Shown one piece after another: positions 1 through 11,431 of a stretch of 11,431 nt of DNA (the stretch's first letter is position 1; the number at the start of each line of letters is the position of its first letter). The notes under the pieces are model-generated. The model saw only the letters and a list, made by a program, of their open reading frames with translations, made no database searches and had not been told where the DNA came from. Made by a program: the position numbers and the translations under genes. The DNA comes from Chloroflexota bacterium. GTDB lineage: Bacteria > Chloroflexota > Anaerolineae > 4572-78 > J111. Where the stretch lies: contig RFJF01000114.1 in assembly GCA_003695455.1 (NCBI GenBank), forward strand, positions 1 to 11,431. Reading direction: 5' to 3'.

Positions 1-2843
1 GCCCCGAACGGGCCGCTCGGCTCCACGGTTTGCACCAGAATTACTTCCATCTCCGGCATTTCGTCGGCGCGATAAATTTTGTACGGGCCAAGCGCGGCAT
101 TGACCATTCGCCCGGCGCTGTCGTAGGCCATTTCTTCGCAGTGGCCGTAGCCCAGCGCCTGCGTCATGCCGCCCTCAACCTGCCCGCTGGCGGTGATGGG
201 GTTGATAGCCACGCCGCAGTCCACGGCCATAACCAGTTTTTTGACCGTCACCTGTCCCGTTTCGATGTCTACCTCTACTTCTGCAAACTGGGCAGCAAAC
301 GGCGGCGGCGATTCCGGCGAAACGTAACTGGCCGTTGCCATGATCTGCATCTGCTCTTCCTGGTGCAGCGAGTGAAGGGCCAGCGCCTCCAGCGTCACCG
401 AACGGCCATCGGGGGCCACGGCCTGCCGGTCACGCAGAACCACGCCGCTCCAGTCATCCAGCCCCAGCATCAGCCCGGCCCGTTCCTTGATTTGCTCGCG
501 AACTTTTTCGGCGGCTTTTTTAACGGCCATACCGGAAATGTAAGTGGTGCTGCTGGCGTACGCGCCCGTATCAAAGGGAGTCATATCGGTATCGCTGGAG
601 TAGATGATGATGTCTTCCAGCGGCACACCCAGCACTTCGGCGGCAATCTGGCTGAGCACCGTGTCTGAACCGGTGCCGAGGTCGGTAGCGCCCACCAGCA
701 CATTGAACGAACCATCGTCATTAATTTTGATGCTGGCTCCACCCATATCCAGCCCCGGAATGGCCGTGCCGTGCATACAAATAGCCACACCCAACCCGCG
801 CCGCAGATGCGGTTTGCCCGGCACCAGATTCCAGCCGGGTTGGCTGCGCCGGTTCCAGTCAATGGCCTGCATGCCCTGGGCCACGCATTCCGGCAGGCCG
901 CTGGTGCGCACCACCGGCACCGAGGTCACATTGTCGGCTTCGCCTTCGCCCAGTTGCGGCGCAATTTCCATCGGGTCGCCGGGTTTGATCCAGTTTTTTC
1001 GTTTGAACTCAATCACGTCCATGCCCAGCGCCACCGCAATTTCTTCCATGTGGGTTTCCAGCGCAAAGAGCGCCTGCGGCGCGCCGTAGCCTCGGTACGC
1101 GCCCGGAACCGGGATGTTGGTGTACACCACCTTGCACTCAAAGCGTTTGTGGGGCGCGTTGTAGGTACTCAGCCCGCGCAGGCCGGTGACGGTTTGCACG
1201 GTCAGACCGTGGGTGGCGTAGGGGCCGGTGTTGCCCAGCACGGTCATTTGCTGCGCTACCAGCGTGCCGTCGCTGTTGACGCCGGTTTTGTAAATGATGG
1301 TTTGCGGGTGGCGGGTGCGGCTCGAGACAAATTCCTCGGCGCGGGTCAGTTCCAGTCGCACCGGTTTGCCGGTGGCAATGGTCAGATGCCCCACAATATC
1401 CTCAATGAGCATTTCCTGCTTAACCCCAAAGCCGCCGCCAATACGCGGTTTGATGACCCGGATGCGTTTGGCGGGCAGGCCCAGCAGCGGGGCCACCATG
1501 CGCCGCACGTGAAACGGCACCTGCGTGGATGAGCGAATCACCAGCCGTTCGTCAGAATCCCAGTAGCTGATGGCAATGTGCGGCTCGATGGGAACCTGCT
1601 GCACCTGATGCACGTAATATTTGGCCTCAAACACGTGGTCGGCTTCGGCAAAACCCTGCTCCACGTTGCCCACATCGGCGTCAATAAAATGGCTGATGTT
1701 GTGGGCTACGTCGTAGGCGTCCGGCATATCCGGTTCATCGTGGATGACCGGCGCGCCTTCTTTGATGGCCTCGTTTTCATCAAACACGGCGGGCAAAACC
1801 TCGTACTCCACTTTGATGCGTTTCACCGCCTCTGCCGCGATTTCCGGCGTTTCCGCCGCCACCGCCGCCACCCGGTCGCCCACGTAGCGCACCTTGTTGT
1901 CAAAGCTCACCTGGTCGTGGGGATGGGGGTTGGGGTAGCTCTGCCCGCCGGAGGCGTAATGCACGCGGGCCACGTTTTGGTAGTGAATGACGGCGCGCAC
2001 ACCGGGCAGGGCGCGGGCTTCGCTGTCATCAATGTTTAAAATGCGGGCGTGGGCGTGGGGGCTGGTGAGCAGTTTGGCGTACAGCATCCCCCGCATTTCA
2101 ACGTCATCCACAAAAGCGGGGTTGCCTTTGGCCAGCTTCACAGCATCCACCTTTGGCTCCGATTTGCCAACAACCTTCAGCTCCGGGGCTTCCGGGGCCA
2201 CTACAAATTTGGGCAGCGTGATGCGTTGTGTGCCGACGCCGCCGGCCTGCGGGCCGCCGCCCGCCATTTCCGGGGTGGGGCCGGCTCCGCCCGCTGAACT
2301 GCCGCTATCGGGCAAATCGCCAAAATCCTGACCGGGCAAAATGATAGGCGTGACCACGTTGGGTTCAACCGTGGTTGGCGCTTCGCCGCGCATCACGGCT
2401 GCCGCTTCCAGCACGGCCTGTACCGGCTTCACGTAGCCGGTTTCGCGGTCCAGGATGCCGGACAGCGCATCGCGCACGTCCGCCTCGGTGGGGTTGGGGT
2501 TCTTTTCCAGCAGGGCTTTGGCTGCCAGAATCATCGCCGGGGTAGAGTAGCCGGACTGGATGGCCCCGGTGCGGATGAACGCCTCCTGAATGGGGTGCAG
2601 ATTGAGACCCTGCGCCAGCCCTTCCACCGTTTCAATGGCGTGGCCGTCGGCCTGCGCCGCCAGCAGAATATCACTGTTGACCAGTTTTCCATCCACCAGC
2701 ACCGCCGACGCGCCGGTTTCGCCGGTGTCGCTGCCAAAGCGCACACTGGTGTAGCCTTCGCGGCGCAGCAGCCGCAGCAGCGTATCGCCGGGGGCGCACT
2801 CAAACGTTTTTTCATCGCCGTTGATGATTACGTTGATTTGCAT
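1..2843 (-). CDS. xdhD: XdhD-type molybdopterin hydroxylase with a cysteine-less ferredoxin-like N-terminal domain (3' end cut by window)
   Basis: The open frame runs from ATG at 2843 (GAGGTG Shine-Dalgarno at 2849-2854, 5-nt spacing) off the left edge; 947 codons are visible. Residues 1-150 have the xanthine-dehydrogenase small-domain fold pattern (ETGAS, LHPIQEAFIRTGAIQSGY, NPNPTEADVRDALSG), but all eight [2Fe-2S] cysteine positions are replaced (S38, T43, S46, D58, S97, S100, D132, E134). A Gly/Pro-rich linker (about 170-205) leads to the molybdopterin subunit, with GGGFGVKQ, GAYRGYGAPQ, TDLGTGSDT, TGAYASSTT and DCGVAINPI. The frame leaves the window at SGPFG, so the catalytic Glu expected just downstream cannot be seen. 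The family hydroxylates purines or other N-heterocycles. E. coli XdhD (956 aa) has the same fused layout and, as I recall it, the same cysteine loss. A separate FAD subunit is not in the window. The substrate is unproven. Confidence 0.9.
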   Translation of the reverse strand, partial: MQINVIINGDEKTFECAPGDTLLRLLRREGYTSVRFGSDTGETGASAVLVDGKLVNSDILLAAQADGHAIETVEGLAQGLNLHPIQEAFIRTGAIQSGYSTPAMILAAKALLEKNPNPTEADVRDALSGILDRETGYVKPVQAVLEAAAVMRGEAPTTVEPNVVTPIILPGQDFGDLPDSGSSAGGAGPTPEMAGGGPQAGGVGTQRITLPKFVVAPEAPELKVVGKSEPKVDAVKLAKGNPAFVDDVEMRGMLYAKLLTSPHAHARILNIDDSEARALPGVRAVIHYQNVARVHYASGGQSYPNPHPHDQVSFDNKVRYVGDRVAAVAAETPEIAAEAVKRIKVEYEVLPAVFDENEAIKEGAPVIHDEPDMPDAYDVAHNISHFIDADVGNVEQGFAEADHVFEAKYYVHQVQQVPIEPHIAISYWDSDERLVIRSSTQVPFHVRRMVAPLLGLPAKRIRVIKPRIGGGFGVKQEMLIEDIVGHLTIATGKPVRLELTRAEEFVSSRTRHPQTIIYKTGVNSDGTLVAQQMTVLGNTGPYATHGLTVQTVTGLRGLSTYNAPHKRFECKVVYTNIPVPGAYRGYGAPQALFALETHMEEIAVALGMDVIEFKRKNWIKPGDPMEIAPQLGEGEADNVTSVPVVRTSGLPECVAQGMQAIDWNRRSQPGWNLVPGKPHLRRGLGVAICMHGTAIPGLDMGGASIKINDDGSFNVLVGATDLGTGSDTVLSQIAAEVLGVPLEDIIIYSSDTDMTPFDTGAYASSTTYISGMAVKKAAEKVREQIKERAGLMLGLDDWSGVVLRDRQAVAPDGRSVTLEALALHSLHQEEQMQIMATASYVSPESPPPFAAQFAEVEVDIETGQVTVKKLVMAVDCGVAINPITASGQVEGGMTQALGYGHCEEMAYDSAGRMVNAALGPYKIYRADEMPEMEVILVQTVEPSGPFG

Positions 2844-2875
2844 ATATTCACCTCGTTGAAACAATTAAACACTGA

Positions 2876-2896
2876 AGTAGGGAGCAGGGAGTAGGC
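2876..2896. repeat. 7-bp tandem repeat in the YgeW-XdhD spacer
   Basis: AGTAGGG, AGCAGGG and AGTAGGC are three near-identical heptamers in a row. The inner part (2884-2893) can also pair with TACTCCTGC (2907-2915), with one bulge, to form a hairpin. Confidence 0.6.
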
Positions 2897-2927
2897 CGTT
2901 ATTCTTTACTCCTGCTTTCGGGATTTG

Positions 2928-2947
2928 ATTATAGCAGGCCCGGCCTG
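2928..2947 (-). promoter_or_regulatory. Possible internal promoter/operator before xdhD: TATAAT plus palindrome
   Basis: On the minus strand a perfect TATAAT (2933-2928) directly follows the palindrome CAGGCC-G-GGCCTG (2947-2935), 10 nt after the YgeW stop. The -35 region is poor (CTGTCG at 18-bp spacing). The palindrome could be an operator that would overlay the promoter spacer. Confidence 0.3.
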
Positions 2948-2957
2948 TTTGCGACAG

Positions 2958-3950
2958 TTAACCGCGCCCGCCCATGGTCAGCGCCATCAGCGCCTTTTGT
3001 ACGTGCAGGCGGTTTTCGGCCTGTTTGTAAATAACAGATTGCGGCCCGTCAATCACGTCGTCGTCTACCTCGTGGCCGCGGTCCACCGGCATGCAGTGCA
3101 TGTAAACGGCGTGTTTTTGGGCCAGCGCCATTTTTTCGGCGGTCACGCGCCAATCTTCGTGCTGTGCGGCCATGGCCTCCACTTCGGCTTCTTCTTCTGT
3201 AACCATAATTGGCCCCCAAGATTTGGGGTAGAGAAAATCGGCGCCGGCAAAGGCTTCGTCCATGTTGTGCGTCTCGGTCAGCGTTACCCCGGCGATGTCC
3301 GCATTTTGGCGTGCCGTTTCCATAATTTCGGGCATCAGGTGGTAGCCTTCCGGGTAGGCCAGCGTGACGTCCATGCCAAAGCGGGGCATCAGCATTACCA
3401 GCGATTGCGGCACGCTGAGCGGGCGCACATATTTGGGCGCAAATGTCCAGCTGATGACAAATTTGCGGCCCCGCAGATTGCGACCAAACAGCTCCATCAG
3501 GGTCATCAAATCGGCCATGGCCTGGCAGGGGTGATCCACATCATCCTGCATACTGATGATGGGCGCATCGGCGTGTTGGGCCATTTCGTACAGGTATTTC
3601 TGGCCGATGCCGGTGCGGCAATCCCGGATGGCGATACCGTGGCCGTAACTGCTGAGCACAATGCCGGTATCTTTGGCGTTTTCGCCGTGACCGATTTGCG
3701 TGGCTTTGGGGGTGAGGTAGACGCCGTGGCCGCCCAACTGGGTAATTCCTGTCTCAAACGAGTTGCGGGTGCGGGTGGATTCTTCAAAAAAGAGCATGTA
3801 GAGCGTTTTGGCGCGTAAAATCTGGTCGTGGGGAATGCCGGCGGCAAATTCGCCCTTGAGCCGGAAGGCCAGTTCCAGCATGGTGTTCAGGTCGTCCACG
3901 CTCCAGTCCTGGGTGGTGATGAAATCTTTTTGAAACAATTTGGTGTTCAT
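2958..3950 (-). CDS. ygeW: YgeW-type knotted transcarbamoylase (ornithine/aspartate carbamoyltransferase superfamily)
   Basis: The 330-residue protein has both carbamoyl-phosphate motifs, STRTR (58-62) and HCMP (285-288), plus DHPCQAMAD (139-147). SWTFAPKYVRPLSVPQ (167-182), FGMDVTLAYPEGY (191-203) and YPKSWGP (241-247) are typical of YgeW and the acetyl/succinyl-ornithine transcarbamylases rather than ordinary ornithine carbamoyltransferase. It probably transfers or releases a carbamoyl group from a ureido compound. In E. coli-type clusters YgeW is tied to carbamoyl-phosphate recovery during anaerobic purine/urate breakdown, which fits XdhD next door. ATG at 3950 is preferred over an in-frame ATG at 4001, because the extra 17 residues are encoded by repeat-rich spacer and look non-conserved. 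The Shine-Dalgarno is weak (AAAGGA, about 13 nt upstream, followed by an A-tract). The true substrate is not readable from sequence, and an arginine-biosynthesis role is less likely. Confidence 0.88.
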   Translation of the reverse strand: MNTKLFQKDFITTQDWSVDDLNTMLELAFRLKGEFAAGIPHDQILRAKTLYMLFFEESTRTRNSFETGITQLGGHGVYLTPKATQIGHGENAKDTGIVLSSYGHGIAIRDCRTGIGQKYLYEMAQHADAPIISMQDDVDHPCQAMADLMTLMELFGRNLRGRKFVISWTFAPKYVRPLSVPQSLVMLMPRFGMDVTLAYPEGYHLMPEIMETARQNADIAGVTLTETHNMDEAFAGADFLYPKSWGPIMVTEEEAEVEAMAAQHEDWRVTAEKMALAQKHAVYMHCMPVDRGHEVDDDVIDGPQSVIYKQAENRLHVQKALMALTMGGRG

Positions 3951-4042
3951 TTTTTTTGGTTGTCCTTTGTGTTTGTAAATTTGCCCTCTGTCATTGGTCA
4001 TCTGTGTTCAAATGACCAGTGACAAGTGGAAAAAGACTCGTT
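3951..4042. repeat. Repeat-bearing spacer between LLM and YgeW genes
   Basis: The core 3991-4025 reads TCATTGG, TCATCTG, TGTTCAA, ATGACCA, GTGACAA in 7-bp steps. The rest is AT-rich with an A8 tract just before the YgeW start. No gene is seen. Confidence 0.55.
3991..4022. other. Hairpin-forming inverted repeat in the LLM-YgeW spacer
   Basis: TCATTGGTCAT (3991-4001) and ATGACCAGTGA (4012-4022) pair over 11 positions with one mismatch (G·U possible in RNA) around a 10-nt loop. There is no U-run, so an intrinsic terminator is not supported; an RNA-processing or stability element is possible. Confidence 0.45.
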
Positions 4043-5035
4043 TTACACCTCAAATTCCGGCATTACATCCCGGATAAACAACTCCAGCCCGTCGAAGGCC
4101 GGTTCATCGGCAAAAGCCACAATGAACAAATCCACGCCGAGCGCGGTGTATTCGCGCAGGCGGGCGGTCACTTCCTCCGGCGTGCCAACGATGGCTACAT
4201 CTTCCGGCCAAATGGGGTAGCGGGCCAGCGCGGCTTCGGCCTGCCGGCGTGTGGCGGCAATGCTGACCACGCCCATCCACGTGCGCCGGATGCCGGCGGG
4301 GTTGCGGCCCACCCCGGCGCAGTGATTCTCAAGCACGCGAATTTTGCGGGCATACGTTTCCGGCGAGACTCCCACCAGATTCCACCAGTCGGCATGCCGG
4401 GCAACGACCCGCAGCATCAGTTTTTCGCCCGCGCCGCCAATCATCACCGGCGGGGGCGGCTGGGGTTTGGGAAAACAGGCCGCGCCGTCAACCCGGTAGT
4501 GTTGGCCGTGGAAGGTGGCCGTCGGTTGGGCCGGGTCCCACATCAATTTGCAAATCTGCACCGCTTCGGCCAGTTGGGCAATACGCGCCGCCGCGCCGGG
4601 AAACTCAAAATTGTAGGCCCGGTACTCGTCAACGTGCCAGCCCGCGCCGAGACCCAGCACAAACCGCCCGCCGCTGAGCATTTGCAGGGTGGCGGCCATT
4701 TTTGCCAGCAGGGCCGGGTTGCGATAATTTTGGCCCAGCACCACCGGCCCAAAATGCAGGTTGGGGTAAAGTCCGGCCAGGTAGCTCAACGTGGTCAGCG
4801 ATTCGGGGAAATTATCCTGCCGGTCATTCATAAAATGGTCGGGAATCCAGGCCGAATGGAAGTGGCCGCTGATACGGTCCAGCATCCGCCGCACCCGCGG
4901 GATGTACTCCCGAATGTCGGACGGCATGCGCCGGTTGCCGTTAGGAATTTCCCAGCCAAATTGTGCAGAGTTCGTTGAGTTTATTGAGTTTGTGGAGTGT
5001 GTTGGGATGGGTGAGCGGAGAGTTTGGTCGTTCAT
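4043..5035 (-). CDS. LLM-class (luciferase-like) flavin/F420-dependent oxidoreductase
   Basis: The 330-residue protein matches the bacterial-luciferase-like TIM-barrel family: FGWEIPNG (26-33), YRNPALLAKMAATL (104-117), SGGRFVLGLGAGWHVDEY (121-138), VMIGGAGEKLMLRVVARHADWWN (197-219) and the C-terminal GTPEEVTARL (284-293). The family uses reduced FMN or F420. The SGGRF-GxGxGW pattern and the single-protein layout are common in F420-type members, but the cofactor cannot be settled here. Residues 14-23 are built from a 9-bp tandem repeat (Thr/Ile-Asn-Ser units), so the first ~24 residues look recruited from spacer DNA. There is no alternative ATG before the first barrel strand, so ATG 5035 is kept, although no clear Shine-Dalgarno precedes it. 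A role in oxidising or ring-opening a heterocycle is inference from context. Confidence 0.88.
   Translation of the reverse strand: MNDQTLRSPIPTHSTNSINSTNSAQFGWEIPNGNRRMPSDIREYIPRVRRMLDRISGHFHSAWIPDHFMNDRQDNFPESLTTLSYLAGLYPNLHFGPVVLGQNYRNPALLAKMAATLQMLSGGRFVLGLGAGWHVDEYRAYNFEFPGAAARIAQLAEAVQICKLMWDPAQPTATFHGQHYRVDGAACFPKPQPPPPVMIGGAGEKLMLRVVARHADWWNLVGVSPETYARKIRVLENHCAGVGRNPAGIRRTWMGVVSIAATRRQAEAALARYPIWPEDVAIVGTPEEVTARLREYTALGVDLFIVAFADEPAFDGLELFIRDVMPEFEV
4971..5006. repeat. 9-bp tandem repeat inside the 5' coding end of the LLM gene
   Basis: TTCGTTGAG, TTTATTGAG, TTTGTGGAG and TGTGTTGGG follow in 9-bp register and encode x-Asn/His-Ser tripeptides at residues 12-23 of the LLM protein. The tract is continuous with the 7-bp spacer tract. 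Confidence 0.65.
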
Positions 5036-5140
5036 CGTTCGTTGTCCGTTACTCGTAAATCGTCAACCCAAAATCGTAAATCAATTGAGTTTGTGGAGTT
5101 GGGTGAGTTTGGTCATTGATAATTGGTAATTGTTCATTGC
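5029..5140. repeat. Long degenerate 7-bp-period repeat tract between SDR and LLM genes
   Basis: About sixteen 7-bp units fill the whole 106-bp spacer and the LLM start codon. Examples are CGTTCAT/CGTTCGT (5029-5042), AAATCGT at 5057 and again at 5071, and TCATTGA/TAATTGG/TAATTGT/TCATTGC (5113-5140). It resembles in style the heptameric STRR repeats known from cyanobacteria. Confidence 0.7.
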
Positions 5141-5141
5141 T

Positions 5142-5894
5142 TCAGCCGTGTTCATCTTTGCGATGCCCAAAGCGTTGGCCGCCGTCCACGGCCAGCACTT
5201 CGCCGGTAACGTATTTGGCCCGCACAAAGTAAAGCACCGCCTCGGCCACGTCCTCCGGCGTGCCCCAGCGATTGAGCAGCGTTTTGTGGGCGGTGCGTTC
5301 AATGAGTTCGGAGTCAAAATCAGGTGGGGGCAACACCGGCCCCGGCGCCACGGCGTTGACGCGCACGGCGGGGGCCAGTTCCAGCGCCAGTTGCCGGCTG
5401 AGCGCCAGCAGCGCCGCCTTACCCACGCTGTGCGCTATGTAATTGGGCCACGGCTCAAACGCCGCCAAATCAACAATGTTGACAATTGCGCCTTCGCCGC
5501 GGGCCAGCATTCCCGGAGCAACGGCGTTGGCGCAGTAGAATGCGCCGTTGATGAGAATGTTGGTTACGGCGTGCCAGTCACTGAAATCAGCGGTGGGGAA
5601 GGGTGTTTCCCGCCACAGCGAGGCGTTGTTCACCAGAATATCCACGCCGCCAAATGTGTCGGCGGCGGCTTGGACCATGGCCGCAACCTGCGCAGCGTTG
5701 GCAATGTTGGCCTGCACCGCCAGCGCCTGCACGCCCAGCGCGCGAGCTTCGGCGGCGGTTTCTTGGGCGGCGGCCGCAGACGAGTTGTAATTGATAACCA
5801 CGTTGGCTCCGGCTTGCGCCAGCGCCAGGGTGATGGCTTTGCCCACGCGCACCGCGCCGCCGGTGATGAGTGCTGTTTTCCCGGTTAGATTCAT
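5142..5894 (-). CDS. Short-chain dehydrogenase/reductase, pteridine-reductase-like
   Basis: This is a 250-residue classical-length SDR with an N-terminal Rossmann fold. The glycine motif TGGAVRVG (11-18) has the Arg typical of NADPH-using pteridine reductases. NNAS is at 89-92, and the tail has VRVNAVAPGPVLPP (177-190) and VTGEVLAVDGG (229-239). At the active site the usual Ser is Asp142, as in PTR1-type pteridine reductases (NIVD, 139-142). Lys159 is present, but the canonical Tyr four residues earlier is His155 (HSVGK); a Tyr lies at 152. It may reduce a pterin or another bicyclic N-heterocycle, or it may be a divergent general SDR. The start at ATG 5894 gives the standard N-terminus directly before TGKTALITGG; the Shine-Dalgarno is weak (GGA). 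Only 33 bp of repeat-like spacer separate it from the amidohydrolase stop. Confidence 0.88.
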   Translation of the reverse strand: MNLTGKTALITGGAVRVGKAITLALAQAGANVVINYNSSAAAAQETAAEARALGVQALAVQANIANAAQVAAMVQAAADTFGGVDILVNNASLWRETPFPTADFSDWHAVTNILINGAFYCANAVAPGMLARGEGAIVNIVDLAAFEPWPNYIAHSVGKAALLALSRQLALELAPAVRVNAVAPGPVLPPPDFDSELIERTAHKTLLNRWGTPEDVAEAVLYFVRAKYVTGEVLAVDGGQRFGHRKDEHG

Positions 5895-5895
5895 G

Positions 5896-5944
5896 TCAGA
5901 GTCCAGATATCAGAATACAGAATTTGTTCATTGTTCATTGATTT
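5896..5944. repeat. Degenerate 7-bp tandem repeat tract at the amidohydrolase/SDR junction
   Basis: Plus-strand units in exact 7-bp register: TCAGAGT, CCAGATA, TCAGAAT, ACAGAAT, TTGTTCA, TTGTTCA, TTGATTT. The two identical TTGTTCA units include the amidohydrolase stop codon and its last residues. Confidence 0.65.
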
Positions 5945-7292
5945 CCACGCCGGCGCGTTTGAATAATCCCGCACAAGCCGAGCGGGCTTCGCGCAGCAGG
6001 GCATCTTCATCCACAAACAGGATTTTTTTGTGGCGCATCAGGATTTTGCCGTTGACGATGACCGTGTCAACTTCGCGGGCGTTAATGTTGTAAACCAGCG
6101 CCGACGGTACGCGATGCACGGGCATGGCAAAGGGGGTGTTTAAATCAACCAGCGTAATGTCGGCCTTTTTGCCCACCTCCAGTGAACCGATGTCGTTGGG
6201 TAACCCGAACGCCTCCGCTCCGCCCCGGCAGGCCATGCGGAGTACGTCTTCCGGCAGCAGAATCATGGCGTTGAGCGTGTGTACCTTTTGCAGCAGCGCC
6301 GTTGTTTTAAGCACTTCCATCATATCCTGACTGTTGTTGCTGCCGGGGCCGTCGGTGCCCAGCGCCACGCTGATGCCCAAATCGAGCATCTCCGGGATGC
6401 GGGCCACGCCGGAGGCCAGATACATGTTGGCTACCGGGCAGTGAACCACAATCGCGCCGTGTTGGGCAATCATCCGCAATTCCTCGTCGCTGAGCCAGAC
6501 GCTGTGCACCAGTTGCACGCTGGAATCCAGCGCCCCCAATGAATCGAGCCATTCCACGTGGCGCAGACCGCGCTTGTCCAGGTCAATCTGCACCTCGGCG
6601 CGGCTTTCTGCCACGTGAATATGCGTGCCCATGCCCCATTCTTTTGCCAGCAAAAAGGTGCGGGTCATCGTTTCATCAGAGCAGCCCCACGGAATTAACG
6701 GCCCAAATTGCAGCCGCAGGCGGTTTTGGTGCTTGCCGTGCCACGTTTCTCGCAGGCGGGCCATCTCTTTGACAATGTGGTCCGGCGTTTCTTTAAACGC
6801 CTCGTGGTAATTCATATCGGCCCAGCCGCGAGCCATCATAAAGCGCAGGCCCGCCTCCTCGGCGGCGCGGAAAATGGCGTCGTCGTTGGCCGGTTCGGTG
6901 TGCACGTAATGGTGGTCGTTCACCGCCGTGCAGCCGCTGCGCACGTTTTCAACCATGCCCAACATTCCGGACAGATACGCTTCTTCTTTTTGCAGCACCC
7001 GGGCCACGGGCCAGATTGCCGATTCAAGCCATTGCAGCAGCGGTTTGTCGTCGGCCAGGCCGCGCAGAAACGTCTGGAACAGATGGGTGTGGGCGTTGAC
7101 CATGCCCGGCATCACAGCCATCAGGTTGGCGTTGATGACGGTTTCGGCGCGGGTGCGGAGTTCCTCCGGCGGCGACCCCGCACCAACGGCCGCGATGCGG
7201 TCATTTTCTACCCACACATATCCCGGCGAGTGAATTTCGTCGTTATCATTGACGGTGACAATTGCACCGTTTTCAATCAGAATTGTGCTCAA
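5928..7292 (-). CDS. Amidohydrolase-superfamily deaminase (SsnA / 8-oxoguanine deaminase / AtzA-like)
   Basis: A start at TTG 7292 (TTGAGCACA, preceded by a GGTGGTG Shine-Dalgarno-like stretch and 1 nt after the upstream TAA) gives 454 residues, the usual family length. The only in-frame ATG upstream (7442) would add 50 residues lying inside the dehydrogenase gene. The subtype-III amidohydrolase signature is complete: VNAHTHLFQTFLRG (65-78; metal ligands H68, H70), HIHVAE (224-229; H226, E229), VHSVWL (H263) and TDGPGSNNSQDMMEV (313-327; D314). The family deaminates or hydrolyses aminopurines, pterins, triazines and similar rings. The LRGLADDKPLLQWL stretch resembles 8-oxoguanine deaminases. 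SsnA is a partner of XdhD and YgeW in the E. coli purine cluster. The last codons and stop are made from the TGAACAA 7-bp repeat that fills the next spacer. Confidence 0.9.
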   Translation of the reverse strand: MSTILIENGAIVTVNDNDEIHSPGYVWVENDRIAAVGAGSPPEELRTRAETVINANLMAVMPGMVNAHTHLFQTFLRGLADDKPLLQWLESAIWPVARVLQKEEAYLSGMLGMVENVRSGCTAVNDHHYVHTEPANDDAIFRAAEEAGLRFMMARGWADMNYHEAFKETPDHIVKEMARLRETWHGKHQNRLRLQFGPLIPWGCSDETMTRTFLLAKEWGMGTHIHVAESRAEVQIDLDKRGLRHVEWLDSLGALDSSVQLVHSVWLSDEELRMIAQHGAIVVHCPVANMYLASGVARIPEMLDLGISVALGTDGPGSNNSQDMMEVLKTTALLQKVHTLNAMILLPEDVLRMACRGGAEAFGLPNDIGSLEVGKKADITLVDLNTPFAMPVHRVPSALVYNINAREVDTVIVNGKILMRHKKILFVDEDALLREARSACAGLFKRAGVEINEQ

Positions 7293-7293
7293 C

Positions 7294-8328
7294 TTACACC
7301 ACCCGGTACTTGATTGGTTGGTTGTGAATGTGGTTGGCAATATTGGTGAAATCAGCAAACCGTTCATTGGCAGCGGCGGCCGTGGCCCCGGCGGCAGTGT
7401 GCGGCGTGAGCAGCACGTTGTAATTTTGCTTTGCCAGCGCAATCAGCGGGTTATCCGGCTTGAGCGGTTCCCACTCAAACGTATCCAGCGCCGCGCCGCC
7501 CACTTTGCCCGATTTCACGGCGTGGGCCAGTTCGGCTTCGTCAATCACGCTGCCACTGCCGCAGCTTACCAGGCAGACTCCGGTTTTCATTTGGGCAAAA
7601 CTGGCCGCGTTGATGAACATATCGGTTTCAGGGAAGTAGGGCAGCAAGTTGACCAGAAAATCACTTTGGGCGTACAGGGCGGGCAGTTGGGCGTACGTCA
7701 GCCCCAATTCCCGTTCAACTGTGTTTGGCAGCCGGCGGCGCTTGTTGTACAGAACTGTCACATCCCAGCCCGCCAGCCGCCGGGCCAGCTCCACGCCAAT
7801 TTCACCAAACCCCAAAATGCCGATGGTTTTTTGCCACAATCCTTCCACGTCATTCCGCCCCGACCAGTTGTAGGCAAAGGTGTCCTCGTCGGTGCGTTTG
7901 CTTTCGCCCCAGTAGGGCGTAGCATCGAGCGCAATTCGCTCAACCTCGCGCAATTTTTTACCCAGCGCCAGCATTTGCATGACCAAATGTTCCGCCACCC
8001 GGATGACGGTGCCCACTGGCCAGCGGCACACAATCACGCCGGCGGCCCGCGCCGCGTCCGTGTCAATATCGTACGTCAGCGAGCCGAGCCGCAGAATGAG
8101 TTTCAGGTTGGGCGCCGCGCCAATCATTCCGGCGTCAACCACGCCGGTGCGCTCCGAGATGAAATATTCGGCATCGGCCAGATGCGCCAGCAACGTCTCC
8201 CGGTCTGGCTGGCGCAGCATGGTGATGTCCAGATAATCCGGCGCCGCGCTCAGCGCGGCCTGCTGGTGGCGCTGGCCGCGTTCGGTGGTAAAAACGGTTT
8301 TGTGCCGGGTTATTTTGTTACTTGTCAT
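7294..8328 (-). CDS. D-isomer-specific 2-hydroxyacid dehydrogenase family protein
   Basis: The 344-residue protein has the two-domain layout of the SerA/D-lactate dehydrogenase family. The NAD-binding motif is GFGEIG (173-178) with Asn195/Lys196/Arg197 after strand 2, and LDTFEWEPL (281-289) and LLTPHTAAG (306-314) supply the catalytic Glu287 and His310. The Arg that normally binds the substrate carboxylate (TARG motif) is Ser258 here (SCGSGSVIDE, 255-264), so activity on a plain 2-hydroxyacid is doubtful and the substrate may lack a carboxylate there. ATG 8328 overlaps the end of the cyclodeaminase gene by 11 bp, and a GGAGG lies 10 nt upstream inside that gene, indicating translational coupling. 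The basic stretch after strand 2 may favour NADP. The true substrate is unknown. Confidence 0.9.
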   Translation of the reverse strand: MTSNKITRHKTVFTTERGQRHQQAALSAAPDYLDITMLRQPDRETLLAHLADAEYFISERTGVVDAGMIGAAPNLKLILRLGSLTYDIDTDAARAAGVIVCRWPVGTVIRVAEHLVMQMLALGKKLREVERIALDATPYWGESKRTDEDTFAYNWSGRNDVEGLWQKTIGILGFGEIGVELARRLAGWDVTVLYNKRRRLPNTVERELGLTYAQLPALYAQSDFLVNLLPYFPETDMFINAASFAQMKTGVCLVSCGSGSVIDEAELAHAVKSGKVGGAALDTFEWEPLKPDNPLIALAKQNYNVLLTPHTAAGATAAAANERFADFTNIANHIHNQPIKYRVV

Positions 8329-8911
8329 TTGCGCTTTGCCTCCGAATGCGTTGAACGGGTGTCAGTTGTTCGATTTGTGTTTCCAGCGTCGCCAATTCCG
8401 GCTCAAATTTTTGCAGCAGGGCCGGCTCCGGCCAGATGCGCAGGTTGCTGTCAAGCAGCAGCAGGGCGGCCCGGGCTGCTGCCGCCAGCAGGCTGATTGC
8501 CATTTCCATATCGTCCCGCACCTGCTCCGAAACCTGACCACGGAACGCCTCCAACTCTTGCGCCGCGTTGATGCTCAATTGGCACACATCTGCGGGCATC
8601 CGGCACAGCAAGGTTTGCCCCTTTAACACCTGGCCCGCATCACGATGGGCCACAAATTCGGCAATGGCCGTGGCGTCACGGTCACACAAATCAAGCAAAT
8701 CAGATTGAATGACGCCCATTTTTTTTATTTGCGGCGCAATTTGGGCCACATTCTGCGCGCCGTGGGCCAAGCTGATTTTCATGCAGGCGTACCCCAGAGA
8801 TGCCGCCTGTGCCGCCGATGCCGCGATGACCGCGCCGGCCATGGCGTGGTGGCTGTTGCTGACCGTGGTTGAAAATTGGCGAATCGATTGGCCGGTAACG
8901 CCGGTGTTCAT
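8318..8911 (-). CDS. Cyclodeaminase/cyclohydrolase family protein (FTCD C-terminal-domain type)
   Basis: The 197-residue, largely helical protein has the length of the stand-alone formimino-tetrahydrofolate cyclodeaminase domain. It keeps DLLDLCDRDATAIAEFV (71-87), which contains the family's CxxDxxAF-like helix, and the late helix DDMEMAISLLAAAARAALLLLDSN (133-156). The Gly-rich folate-binding loop (usually PGGGS) is replaced by SHHAMAGAV (20-28), so cofactor binding may differ. In purine fermentation the cyclodeaminase turns formimino-THF into methenyl-THF and ammonia, which would suit this cluster. The start ATG overlaps the preceding stop as ATGA, and an AAGGGG ribosome site sits about 8 nt upstream. 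The family is fairly clear; the reaction is inference. Confidence 0.78.
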   Translation of the reverse strand: MNTGVTGQSIRQFSTTVSNSHHAMAGAVIAASAAQAASLGYACMKISLAHGAQNVAQIAPQIKKMGVIQSDLLDLCDRDATAIAEFVAHRDAGQVLKGQTLLCRMPADVCQLSINAAQELEAFRGQVSEQVRDDMEMAISLLAAAARAALLLLDSNLRIWPEPALLQKFEPELATLETQIEQLTPVQRIRRQSANDK

Positions 8912-9777
8912 TCGTTGAGCCCCTTCAGAATGTGACCGGCAGTTTTTTGGCGGCTTTGCACGCTGCTGCTGGTATCAAACCAGGTGCGCCAGTAGCGCAA
9001 TTTGCCCTGCGCAATCTCAAAAAAGGCCAGGTCTTCATCTGCGCCGCGCCGGCCGGTATCGGGGTTGGTGCAGGCAAAAGTCTGCTCGCAAAATCCAAAA
9101 TTCGGCTGCGCCGAATCGAACAGGACCCGTCGCGGCGTAACGTGTGTATCGGTGTAATTGGCAAAGTAAATTTCTGCGGCGCGAGCCACGTCAGGCCAAC
9201 CCTGCTGAAAATCCCACGGCGGGCAAACGCAAATTTCATCGTGAAATACCGCCCGCAGTTGCGCCAGCTCATGGCTGCTCCATGCCCGCGCGTGAGCGTG
9301 GATTATCTGCCTGGCAGCGGCCCGGCTGGGCGGCTGCCCTGAATCGCGGGCCGGCGACCAGCCGACCTCCGGCCACGGCTCGTTGATGCCGGTAATGATG
9401 CGGCGGCGGATGGTGTCCAGATAAAAGTGGAAATGGCGCATTCTGAGTTGATTGTCAAACTCAATAATTGTGCCGCCTTGCGTTTCCACACAATCGCCGT
9501 GTGCAACGGTGACGCTGCGTTGAATCCAGTAGACTCCGGCAGCTTGCTGTTCAACATCTACCAGTAATCGAACGATACGTAACTGGAGCGCCGTATAATT
9601 AAACATCTGCTCTTGCATGGCGGCGCAAACTTCGTCAATTCCCTGCCATGTAACCGCCCCAAAAGTGGCCGTTACGGCGGGGTGAATGTGTGCGCAAAAC
9701 TGGTCGGGGTTTTGCCTTTCAAGTGCGTTAAATTGGGCGCGGATGGCCGCCTCGGCAGCAGCCCGGTTGATTGCCAT
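8908..9777 (-). CDS. Tandem NTF2-like (SnoaL-type) domain protein
   Basis: The 289-residue protein appears to hold two cone-shaped NTF2-like domains. The first is about residues 5-128 (helix AAEAAIRAQFNALERQNPDQF, then ITxx strands ending in FHFYLDTIRR). The second is about 152-272 (AARQIIHAHARAWSSHELAQLRAVFHDEI, then WPDVARAAEIYFANY, ending LRYWRTWFDTS). Each has the pattern of a short N-terminal helix, an acidic His-Asp/Pro strand and a terminal Tyr/Trp-Phe-D strand. Such proteins act as small-molecule isomerases, dehydratases, cyclases or binding proteins, and no specific catalytic set can be assigned. It is the first structural gene after the regulator (39-bp gap, with a small hairpin) and is coupled to the cyclodeaminase by an ATGA overlap, so it likely acts in the same pathway. 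Confidence 0.8.
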   Translation of the reverse strand: MAINRAAAEAAIRAQFNALERQNPDQFCAHIHPAVTATFGAVTWQGIDEVCAAMQEQMFNYTALQLRIVRLLVDVEQQAAGVYWIQRSVTVAHGDCVETQGGTIIEFDNQLRMRHFHFYLDTIRRRIITGINEPWPEVGWSPARDSGQPPSRAAARQIIHAHARAWSSHELAQLRAVFHDEICVCPPWDFQQGWPDVARAAEIYFANYTDTHVTPRRVLFDSAQPNFGFCEQTFACTNPDTGRRGADEDLAFFEIAQGKLRYWRTWFDTSSSVQSRQKTAGHILKGLNE

Positions 9778-9816: not shown

Positions 9817-10353
9817 TTACAACGCAGGCGGGGTGATGCAGCAAATCAGCTCCAGCGTGCCATCCCCCACCGCCGAAAATTCCTGCAATAAATCACCGTC
9901 AAAATAAATACTGTCCCCTTCGTCCAGTTCGTGCGTGGTTTTACCCACGGTGATGCGCATTTTGCCGTGAACCACGTGCATCCACTGCTCAGTGGGTTTG
10001 TCCAGCGGCATGGCTTGCCGGCAGGCCCCCGGTTCCATTTTGATGAGCAGCGGCAGCATCTGGCGGGTGATTTCCGGCGATAGCAAATCGTAACCCATGT
10101 GAGAGTCCGGAAAGTAGAGGGTCCGGCGTTCGTTGGCGCGCACAACGGTGTTGGGACGGGTTTCATCCAGAAAATAAAACATGGGTACGTGCAGGGCAGT
10201 GGCAATGCTTTGCAGCGAGTTGAGCGAGGGGGAAATCTGGTTGTTTTCAATCTGGCTCAAAAAACCGGCCGTCAACCCGGTTTGCGCGCCCAGTTCACGC
10301 AGGCTGAGGCCCAGTTTTTTGCGCTGTCTGCGAACACGTTCGCCGATTTTCAC
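9817..10353 (-). CDS. XRE-family transcriptional regulator with C-terminal cupin domain
   Basis: GTG at 10353 is the start because a strong GGAGGG lies at 10358-10363, 4 nt upstream; an in-frame ATG at 10422 would add 23 residues from the promoter region. The 178-residue product has a helix-turn-helix (about 5-60: GERVRRQRKKLGLSLRELG, TGLTAGFLSQIENNQISPS) and a cupin (about 98-175: QWMHVVHGKMRITVG, LDEGDSIYFDGDLLQEF). This HTH_3 plus cupin_2 architecture is typical of one-component metabolite-sensing repressors of catabolic genes (PuuR/SutR-like). It is the first gene of the run that follows, so it likely controls that operon and itself. The ligand is unknown; the cupin lacks an obvious two-histidine metal set in the part I can see. 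Confidence 0.9.
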   Translation of the reverse strand: MKIGERVRRQRKKLGLSLRELGAQTGLTAGFLSQIENNQISPSLNSLQSIATALHVPMFYFLDETRPNTVVRANERRTLYFPDSHMGYDLLSPEITRQMLPLLIKMEPGACRQAMPLDKPTEQWMHVVHGKMRITVGKTTHELDEGDSIYFDGDLLQEFSAVGDGTLELICCITPPAL

Positions 10354-10357
10354 TGTG

Positions 10358-10363
10358 CCCTCC
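10358..10363 (-). promoter_or_regulatory. Ribosome binding site GGAGGG fixing the GTG start of the XRE gene
   Basis: A perfect anti-SD match 4 nt before GTG 10353 decides the start, against the longer frame beginning at ATG 10422. Confidence 0.7.
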
Positions 10364-10460
10364 GGGGGTAACCAAAAATCAATGAAGCGGCCAAAACGGG
10401 ATGCCTGACGAAGCCGGGGCAATGCTCAAAATGCTGAAGGGTAAGCTGTATAGTGAGTGT

Positions 10461-10533: not shown

Positions 10534-11431
10534 TCAGGATTCGGCCGCCTCTGCCAGCACCGATAGCGGCAGCGGAAAAACAGGCGGGCGCACACTGAAC
10601 GCCCCCACCTGTGCCATCTGCTCGGCCGGCGAGCCGTTCAACCCCGCTTCGCGGGCGATGAGCCGCGCCGCCGGCTGGCCGCATACGCGCCCCTGGCAGT
10701 TGCCCATTCCGCAGCGGGTCAGCCCCTTCACCTCGGCCAGGCTGTGCGCCCCGGCCTCCACTGCCGCCCGAATCTCCCGCTGCCGCACCGACTCGCAGCG
10801 GCAAATGATGGTCTCGTCATCCGGCAGGGTGAACAGCCCCGGCGCGGGCGCAAACCACGCCCCCAGCAGCCGGGCAAAGCGGCGCCCGCCTGCCAGCGCG
10901 GACTTCTCGCGGGCCGCAACACGGTCCAGTTCAATGTCGGAGAGGAAGCCCGTGTGGTGCGCCGCCGCGGCCCCGGCAATTCGCCCCTCAATCCGGGCCA
11001 GTTCTGCCCCGCCGATGCCTGCCCCATCGCCGGCGGCAAACACGCCGGGGTAGGTGGTTTGCAGGTACTTGCCCCGTTGGGGAATCCAGCCGCCCAGTTC
11101 GTGGTCAAACCGGTGCTCGCAGCCCAGCATGCGGCTCAACTGCGTAGCGGGGGTGAATCCCCAACCGGTCAAAATGGTATCTACGGCAAGCGTTTCTTTT
11201 TTGCCGGGGATGGGCGCGCCGCCGGAATCAAGCGGAGCAATCACCGCCCCTGAGACAGACTCGTTGCCGTGGGCGGCCACCACCGACCAGCCGGAGCGCA
11301 GCGATACCCCGGCCCGGCGCAAAATTTGCCGGTAGCGCCAGCCGTCGAGCAACTGCGCCCGCCGGGCCAGCAGCGTTCCCGGCATTTTGAGGGCACGGGC
11401 TACCGGCAGCCGCCCGGCATCGAGAACCGCC
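10534..11431 (-). CDS. FAD/NAD(P)-dependent oxidoreductase, HcnB / opine-oxidase subunit A-like (5' end cut by window)
   Basis: Only the C-terminal 298 residues are in the window; the frame stays open to the right edge, so the apparent ATG at 11385 is internal. It shows the second FAD motif of the glutathione-reductase-like fold (YPGVFAAGDGAGIGGAELA, about 127-145 of the visible part), the IEGRIAGAAAA helix, and then a BFD-type [2Fe-2S] domain with CRC (210-212) and CGMGNCQGRVC (240-250). The tail RPPVFPLPL matches HcnB/OoxA/SoxA-type proteins, which oxidise amino acids, opines or sarcosine with partner subunits. No partner is in the window. Its stop is 180 bp before the XRE regulator start with no clear terminator, so it could be an upstream operon member or a separate unit. 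Confidence 0.85.
   Translation of the reverse strand, partial: AVLDAGRLPVARALKMPGTLLARRAQLLDGWRYRQILRRAGVSLRSGWSVVAAHGNESVSGAVIAPLDSGGAPIPGKKETLAVDTILTGWGFTPATQLSRMLGCEHRFDHELGGWIPQRGKYLQTTYPGVFAAGDGAGIGGAELARIEGRIAGAAAAHHTGFLSDIELDRVAAREKSALAGGRRFARLLGAWFAPAPGLFTLPDDETIICRCESVRQREIRAAVEAGAHSLAEVKGLTRCGMGNCQGRVCGQPAARLIAREAGLNGSPAEQMAQVGAFSVRPPVFPLPLSVLAEAAES

Follow-up and report, generated by a model that had tools for sequence, protein, structure and literature searches.

Gene content and conservation of the locus

The stretch of DNA analyzed here (the window; 11,431 nucleotides) is one whole contig (RFJF01000114.1; G000:C410 in our numbering) of an Anaerolineae genome of 4.38 Mb, which is spread over 929 contigs and is 87% complete. 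Its ten genes all lie on the minus strand, tightly spaced or overlapping, and in order of transcription they encode an FAD/BFD-like oxidoreductase (cut by the contig end), an XRE-cupin regulator, a tandem SnoaL/NTF2-like protein, an FTCD_C-like protein, a D-2-hydroxyacid-dehydrogenase-fold protein (2HADH), an amidohydrolase, a short-chain dehydrogenase/reductase (SDR), an LLM-class flavoprotein, a carbamoyltransferase, and an XdhD-type molybdenum hydroxylase (also cut). Gene calls and domain scans bear out the co-directional set described in the original prediction, and also its remark that YgfK, YgeX, YgeY, hydantoinase, and carbamate kinase are absent from the visible part, as none of these five was found among the ten genes. 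Rfam and tRNA scans of the window gave no match at gathering scores. The cluster is real, conserved, and linked to purines, and its XdhD, in which all of the iron-sulfur cluster cysteines have been replaced, is the part most worth following.

A carbamoyltransferase search of genome contigs returned 21 loci, all from Chloroflexota. L015, from a genome of the same genus as the window source (G676), keeps the genes for FTCD_C, 2HADH, amidohydrolase, SDR, LLM, and carbamoyltransferase in the same order at 57 to 90% identity. Further on, it carries YgeY (above its curated cut-off), a second 2HADH, a LacD-type aldolase, a YgfM-like FAD subunit of molybdenum enzymes, XdhD, an SDR, an isomerase-like protein, and an FGGY kinase. 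L132, which belongs to another family, keeps FTCD_C, 2HADH, amidohydrolase, and SDR at 47 to 72% identity and also has solute-binding and permease genes of ATP-binding cassette (ABC) transporters; L182 and L185 keep 2HADH, amidohydrolase, and SDR, with YgfM and XdhD further on. The gene order appears to exceed chance, judging by the six genes kept in L015 and the four in L132. The original prediction would have been refuted by a gene order found in no relative; L015 and L132 each keep part of it.

YgeY was present in at least 15 of the 21 carbamoyltransferase loci and a gene for E1 alpha or beta in at least 10, both counts being lower bounds because several of the loci are short contigs. Other stretches of G676 encode a hydantoinase (TIGR02033, 480.8 bits; cut-off, 393), UbiD, E2, more amidohydrolases, an iron-type alcohol dehydrogenase, and FAD oxidases, and the F420 gene cofD scored above its cut-off in this genome. 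The hydantoinase of L014 (482 bits) also exceeds the TIGR02033 cut-off of 393.

XdhD and its lost iron-sulfur ligands

The window's molybdenum hydroxylase (positions 3 to 2843, minus strand; MoCoBD_1/2 and Fer2_2 matches; 3′ end cut by the contig end) resembles Escherichia coli XdhD along the whole chain, N-terminal domain included, at 40% of aligned positions, compared with 36% for XdhA. The best matches in the PDB, by sequence and by fold, were xanthine-oxidase-family molybdenum hydroxylases, and the fold search only confirmed the family. The loop around Glu606 of E. coli XdhD, a residue that Li et al. (2025; PMC12507026) propose orients urate, is present in the window as LGEG, with Glu633 in the Glu606 column (codon at 945 to 947, minus strand, by alignment). 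All 56 rows that were aligned, the window's among them, have Glu in this column, and the loop is absent from E. coli XdhA and from the three other molybdenum enzymes reaching the column. The active-site Glu that follows GPFG is seen in L006 and L015; the window sequence ends just before it.

Genomic context ties this XdhD clade to purine catabolism through three cases among the 40 XdhD neighborhoods read (two sets of 20), many of which are short contigs or have no purine gene near. L187 carries, in one direction, YgeY, one unlabeled gene, a second-type carbamoyltransferase (CTase2), a YgfM-like gene, XdhD (77% identical to the window's), SsnA, and YqeB, with YgeY, SsnA, and YqeB exceeding their curated cut-offs. 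L189 has LLM, YgfM-like, XdhD, SsnA-like amidohydrolase, YqeB, and YqeC genes, and L202 has YqeB (over cut-off), YgeY2, YgfM-like, XdhD, aminotransferase-like, and ThrC-like genes. In the window, XdhD comes directly after the YgeW-like carbamoyltransferase, with neither SsnA nor YgeY, whereas L187 has both SsnA and YgeY beside XdhD. A YgfM-like gene adjoins XdhD in L015 and in many relatives.

Enzymes of the xanthine oxidase family normally pass electrons via an iron-sulfur relay. The window XdhD is like the aldehyde oxidoreductases (1dgj/1sij), 4-hydroxybenzoyl-CoA reductase (1rm6), and xanthine dehydrogenase (XDH) in its fold and molybdenum domain, but unlike them it has all eight [2Fe-2S] ligand cysteines replaced. 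Alignment to the Fe-S domains of 1sij and 1dgj shows that the N-terminal pseudo-[2Fe-2S] domain itself is kept (residues 1 to 155; positions 2379 to 2843, minus strand) and that the ligand columns read S, T, S, D, S, S, D, and E. E. coli XdhD likewise lacks all eight. We counted these cysteines in a nonrandom sample made up of 30 loci from an XdhD search, 40 hand-chosen stretches of its list, and L006 and L015, retaining proteins of more than 600 residues and at least 50% identity, removing duplicates, and leaving out L217, which has no N-terminal domain. Among the 55 Anaerolineae rows, window included, 13 had the cysteines of both clusters (4+4), 5 those of the second cluster only (0+4), 10 a single one (0+1), and 27 none (0+0).

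Losses of the cluster cysteines have recurred on the molybdenum-domain tree. The label "none or one" required 5 changes (shuffled mean, 15.5), "both clusters" 7 (11.9), and "second cluster only" 2 (4.9), and at least three of the five "none or one" changes are forced by well-supported branches. Separate losses also fit because there are two replacement patterns: S, T, x, D/E in a large clade and D, S/T, x, x elsewhere. A loss common to E. coli and Anaerolineae by descent was ruled out by the tree, which places E. coli outside the Anaerolineae rows, and by the XdhD of Cetobacterium (45% identical to that of E. coli), which keeps all eight cysteines and whose gene sits among dpaL, YgeY, SsnA, and dihydropyrimidinase genes in a cluster of uricolytic type; the E. 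coli rows sit on long branches, and their exact tree position is unsure. An alignment error was excluded as well, as proteins with eight, four, one, and no cysteines align in one register with the two replacement patterns.

The empty N-terminal domain is under purifying selection. In seven pairs of cysteine-less proteins, the ratio of nonsynonymous to synonymous substitution rates (dN/dS) was 0.08 to 0.17 for this domain and 0.03 to 0.14 for the molybdenum domain, the N-terminal domain being somewhat faster in all seven; two eight-cysteine pairs gave N-terminal values of 0.24 and 0.18, and a third was saturated. A structure model of the L015 XdhD (pLDDT, 72; pTM, 0.72) has beta-grasp-like strands as well as a run of helices in this domain, with low confidence at the former cluster loop. 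Domain placement in the model is unreliable because comparison with aldehyde oxidoreductases over about 1,025 alignment columns gave a TM-score of 0.67 and a root mean square deviation of over 11 Å.

The flavin partner is altered too. The Asn of the GGN motif, which we take to be FAD-binding along with the first motif (AGG), is kept in two canonical subunits used for comparison and in those of Cetobacterium and Shinella, but none of the 27 Chloroflexota YgfM-like proteins examined has it, and E. coli YgfM lacks it too. Four of the 27 rows hardly or never cover the first motif, the L197 protein is not adjacent to XdhD, and the L015 protein is encoded at L015:14355-15107. Most of the other YgfM-like proteins do have the first motif, AGG with T, S, or A, and may therefore still bind flavin. 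Erosion of the GGN motif is seen even beside four eight-cysteine XdhD proteins, which suggests that the flavin motif was lost first, then the FAD-side cluster, and then the molybdenum-side cluster; the first cysteine set is presumably the FAD-side one, as in xanthine oxidase structures.

The reductive uric acid pathway of E. coli comprises XdhD-YgfM, YgfK, SsnA, HyuA, YgeW, YqeA, YgeY, and YgeX, and purified E. coli XdhD with a copurified 30-kDa protein taken as YgfM converted urate plus NADH to yanthine (PMC12507026). The XdhD section of that paper mentions no control without NADH, and neither "cysteine" nor "2Fe-2S" occurs in its main text. In the accessible portions of three other papers, iron-sulfur was mentioned for YgfK only (PMC12990295), and no statement on missing XdhD ligands was found (PMC2997495, for XdhD; PMC2276186, for XdhD, cysteine, and cluster terms). 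The missing ligands go unmentioned in the open literature surveyed by title and start of abstract; subscription papers and bioRxiv lay outside this survey, and prior notice is possible. A paper on Clostridioides difficile describes molybdenum-subunit loci with no iron-sulfur or FAD genes nearby (PMC11448449).

Carbamoyltransferase, amidohydrolase, and accessory enzymes

The carbamoyltransferase (positions 2958 to 3950, minus strand, with the start set from homologs; OTCace-type Pfam match) retains the motifs STRT, HPCQ, HCMP, KSW, and SVPQ in alignment. It has catalytic motifs in common with ornithine and N-acetylornithine carbamoyltransferases but differs from them in its YgeW-like KSW and SVPQ loops and its separate clade. 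A quick tree placed it in a Chloroflexota-only clade of 26 rows and joined the paralog CTase2 to YgeW (support, only 81), with ornithine, N-acetylornithine, and putrescine carbamoyltransferases set apart. The window protein and CTase2 are 52% identical to each other and about equally like E. coli YgeW (35 to 36% identity). Against the tree, the YgeW model TIGR03316 slightly favors the window protein (224) over CTase2 (204 in the same genome and 195 in L187). The CTase2 proteins are themselves below the YgeW cut-offs, with NF005538 scores of 219.2 and 211, respectively. As the window protein also falls below the cut-off, with tree support of only 81 and equal identities, the name YgeW was dropped; what stands of the "YgeW-type" enzyme first described is a YgeW-like protein of a related clade with the motifs kept.

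The amidohydrolase (5928 to 7292; TTG start assumed) is of the ATZ/TRZ type by domain scans and retains its metal-ligand motifs in alignment. The earlier label of SsnA type holds only at the superfamily level; SsnA proper was ruled out by the curated cut-off and by a separate, true SsnA on contig C568 (TIGR03314, 520.7 bits; cut-off, 455.5). The best model for the LLM-class flavoprotein (4043 to 5035, start uncertain; ortholog with the same neighbors in L015) was the F420-dependent subfamily TIGR03560, at 194 bits and below the cut-off of 231.4, and an LLM gene lies near XdhD in L015, L179, and L189.

Other enzymes of the operon have diverged at their catalytic positions. The SDR (5142 to 5894; PRK09135, 212 bits against a cut-off of 288) keeps the pteridine-reductase-like motif TGGAxRVGK, and in the window and in five relatives spanning the site it has His at the position of the catalytic Tyr of the YxxxK rule. 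In the 2HADH (7294 to 8328; domain scan and alignment), CGSGS or a similar sequence replaces ARG in the window and in six relatives, and two 2HADH-2 paralogs have ARG, whose Arg we take to be catalytic; a stretch around DEDTFAYNW is common to the closer relatives. The stand-alone FTCD_C-like protein (8318 to 8911) matches PF04961 weakly (45.7 bits; gathering score, 24.5). At an E value of ≤0.001 such a protein was found in 7 of 400 genomes of the phylum, the window's own counted, with one other strong match; L015 and L132, which also have it, lay outside this sample. Searches gave no useful PDB match and no plasmid relatives. A relative of about 41% identity (L069; G283:C45) lies in unrelated surroundings, close to what looks by eye like a YqeC gene. 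With canonical catalytic residues gone from the SDR and the 2HADH, and with a divergent FTCD_C-like protein, family names do not reveal the reactions of these enzymes.

The three remaining genes, all on the minus strand, stand at the start of the set. The tandem SnoaL/NTF2-like protein (8908 to 9777) matches SnoaL_2 in two stretches. The XRE-cupin regulator (9817 to 10422; HTH_3 and Cupin_2) has relatives near related clusters in L075 (39%) and L189 (40%). The FAD/BFD-like [2Fe-2S] oxidoreductase (10534 to 11430, 5′ end cut by the contig end; Fer2_BFD, SO_alpha_A3, and Pyr_redox_2) is 59% identical to L015:455-1870. At L015:189-1870, a small Fer2_4 protein precedes this ortholog, an arrangement like that of multisubunit amine or amino-acid dehydrogenases.

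Elsewhere, the same genome carries what looks like a canonical set, beside which the window looks like a second branch. One contig (L076; G000:C285) has YgeY (486 bits, over cut-off), CTase2, and ArcC and then, at the place taken by YgeX in E. coli, a ThrC-like gene. Another (L096; C276) encodes a partial, separate XDH that is nearest the selenium-dependent XDH model and keeps its eight Fe-S cysteines; the GntR regulators preceding the C276 XDH and the C285 genes are 54% identical to each other. Among 18 relatives chosen from the carbamoyltransferase matches, 17 had SsnA over the cut-off, and the remaining one scored 453.5 against 455.5. Of 15 Chloroflexota genomes searched, three (G564, G580, and G423) have a YgfK above its curated cut-off, contrary to the published statement that the phylum is without it; the window's own genome has none above the cut-off. 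On a further contig (L092; G000:C350), an SsnA-like amidohydrolase, 74% identical to AHase-c9, adjoins a UbiX flavin prenyltransferase, and one UbiD-family gene lies elsewhere in the genome.

Interpretations of the pathway and their meaning

Judging from sequence, we give a probability of about 0.5 to the reading that the window is part of an Anaerolineae cluster for N-heterocycle (purine-type) degradation, which would be a variant form of the reductive urate/yanthine pathway and a second branch beside the more canonical set of the same genome. In such a branch, XdhD would interconvert oxopurines at carbon 6 (of the urate-to-yanthine type), with the substrate oriented by the Glu606 loop; the LLM protein, probably F420-dependent, would take the role of YgfK in reducing the ring; the amidohydrolase would deaminate or open the ring; hydantoinase and a YgeY-type hydrolase, encoded in the same-genus cluster outside the window, would yield ureido acids; and the YgeW-like carbamoyltransferase would phosphorolyze one ureido group to carbamoyl phosphate. 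For the steps other than those of XdhD and the carbamoyltransferase we infer the route, and the substrate may differ from urate. The purine variant route of the original prediction is supported by the Glu606-bearing XdhD, the L187 and L202 clusters, and the YgeY, YgfM-like, and hydantoinase genes of the same genus; its formimino step is not supported (see below).

The locus is like the E. coli urate pathway in its Glu606-loop XdhD with a cysteine-less N-terminal domain, the YgeW-like loops of its carbamoyltransferase, and the YgfM-like subunit, YgeY, and hydantoinase of the same-genus relative's cluster. It is unlike that pathway in having LLM and not YgfK, an amidohydrolase that is not SsnA, and a carbamoyltransferase of another clade, in adding FTCD_C, 2HADH, SDR, and NTF2 proteins, and in being without YgeX and carbamate kinase. 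An F420-dependent LLM protein (PF00296) has already been proposed as the YgfK replacement in Chloroflexota, from SsnA neighborhoods (Li et al. 2025; PMC12507026). The window shares this LLM feature with those loci but differs from them in that its SsnA is on another contig, and 3 of 15 genomes do have YgfK.

Several observations weigh against assigning the window to a urate branch. Its enzymes fall short of the curated models: the truncated XdhD scores 673.8 with TIGR03313 (cut-off, 1101.9; L015, 730; L187, 701; E. coli, 2120), so that the name XdhD stands by the Glu606 loop and the whole-chain likeness and not by the cut-off; the carbamoyltransferase scores 224 against 500 with TIGR03316 and 234.2 against 453 with NF005538; and the amidohydrolase scores 256.5 bits against 455.5 with TIGR03314. 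No YgfM-like gene lies beside XdhD in the window, where XdhD runs into the contig end. SsnA, CTase2, and YgeY2 are on contigs other than the window's, so urate is not necessarily the substrate here. Relatives' clusters carry genes for thiamine pyrophosphate (TPP)-dependent E1/E2, UbiD, FGGY kinase, aldolase, and isomerase, for which the urate pathway has no need. Finally, of 396 genomes of the class, 241 contain XdhD homologs (E ≤ 1e-150) and 36 contain homologs of the carbamoyltransferase (E ≤ 1e-110); XdhD is therefore mostly found without this carbamoyltransferase, and the two are not obligate partners.

These extra genes would find a use if uricolytic-enzyme paralogs degraded a larger N-heterocycle, such as a pterin or a purine with a sugar-like or carboxylated side chain, with the relatives' TPP-dependent E1/E2, FGGY kinase, aldolase, isomerase, SDR, and UbiD/UbiX handling the side chain. 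We regard this as possible but somewhat unlikely. The extra genes recur (E1 in at least 10 of the 21 carbamoyltransferase loci, and FGGY kinase, LacD-type aldolase, hydroxypyruvate-isomerase-like, and UbiD genes), UbiX stands beside an SsnA-like amidohydrolase in the window genome, L132 has its ABC transporter genes, the SDR is nearest pteridine reductases, and the genome has its separate canonical-looking set. Nevertheless, an XdhD of the same clade, with the Glu606 loop, sits in the plain uricolytic-type cluster of L187, the SDR is without its catalytic Tyr, and the window, the part of the genome searched for them, has neither a kinase nor an E1 gene. A pathway with an HcnABC-like amine oxidase or a sugar side chain, drawn from L074/L075, was kept only as a rival. 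The route of the original prediction, in which deamination or hydroxylation and ring opening give a formimino compound whose group passes to tetrahydrofolate for cyclodeamination by FTCD_C, was rejected as very improbable: the FTCD_C match does exceed its gathering score, but it is weak and has few relatives, no FTCD_N was found in the one genome searched (the window's, 87% complete), and XdhD and the carbamoyltransferase point to ureido and not formimino intermediates. About as little credit goes to a scheme like the xanthinase of Rabinowitz, in which xanthine would be opened to a ureidoimidazole carboxylate, followed by carbamoyl loss, UbiD decarboxylation, and amidohydrolase steps; UbiD, several amidohydrolases, and the carbamoyltransferase do occur together in relatives, and the window genome has its UbiD-family gene elsewhere, but the window itself has no UbiD, no formiminotransferase was found, and XdhD and LLM would be left without a place.

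The cysteine-less XdhD calls for an explanation of its own. That it is a pseudo-enzyme, either decaying or serving a structural purpose and without catalytic function, would suit the loss of all eight cysteines, the lack of a neighboring YgfM gene in the window, and the faster N-terminal domain of the seven cysteine-less pairs, but is very unlikely given the low dN/dS of both domains, the active-site Glu in 35 of 35 rows reaching that column, and the reported activity of the equally cysteine-less E. coli XdhD (PMC12507026). More speculatively, XdhD-type enzymes may have repeatedly dismantled their electron chain (flavin motif, FAD-side cluster, then molybdenum-side cluster), while the molybdenum active site and the Glu606 loop were kept and purifying selection preserved the empty domain, and may work as redox-neutral purine transhydroxylases, a tentative idea to which we give rather low odds. 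Molybdenum would be reduced by hydroxylation at C8 (xanthine to urate) and reoxidized by removal of the C6 oxygen of urate, for a net conversion of xanthine to yanthine with no external electron donor. The reported formation of yanthine with NADH by the E. coli enzyme speaks against transhydroxylation as the sole mode.

The reductive breakdown of urate, described only recently, is of medical relevance; its first enzyme, E. coli XdhD, is said to draw electrons from NADH through YgfM. An XdhD without cluster cysteines leaves two directly testable possibilities, an unknown route for electrons to molybdenum or a reaction that requires no electrons, and the Anaerolineae supply natural intermediates with eight, four, one, and no cysteines. 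In addition, the operon points to a second clade of carbamoyltransferases, and its enzymes with changed catalytic residues offer a concrete lead to a purine-like pathway of Chloroflexota, for which the data here come mainly from metagenome-assembled genomes.

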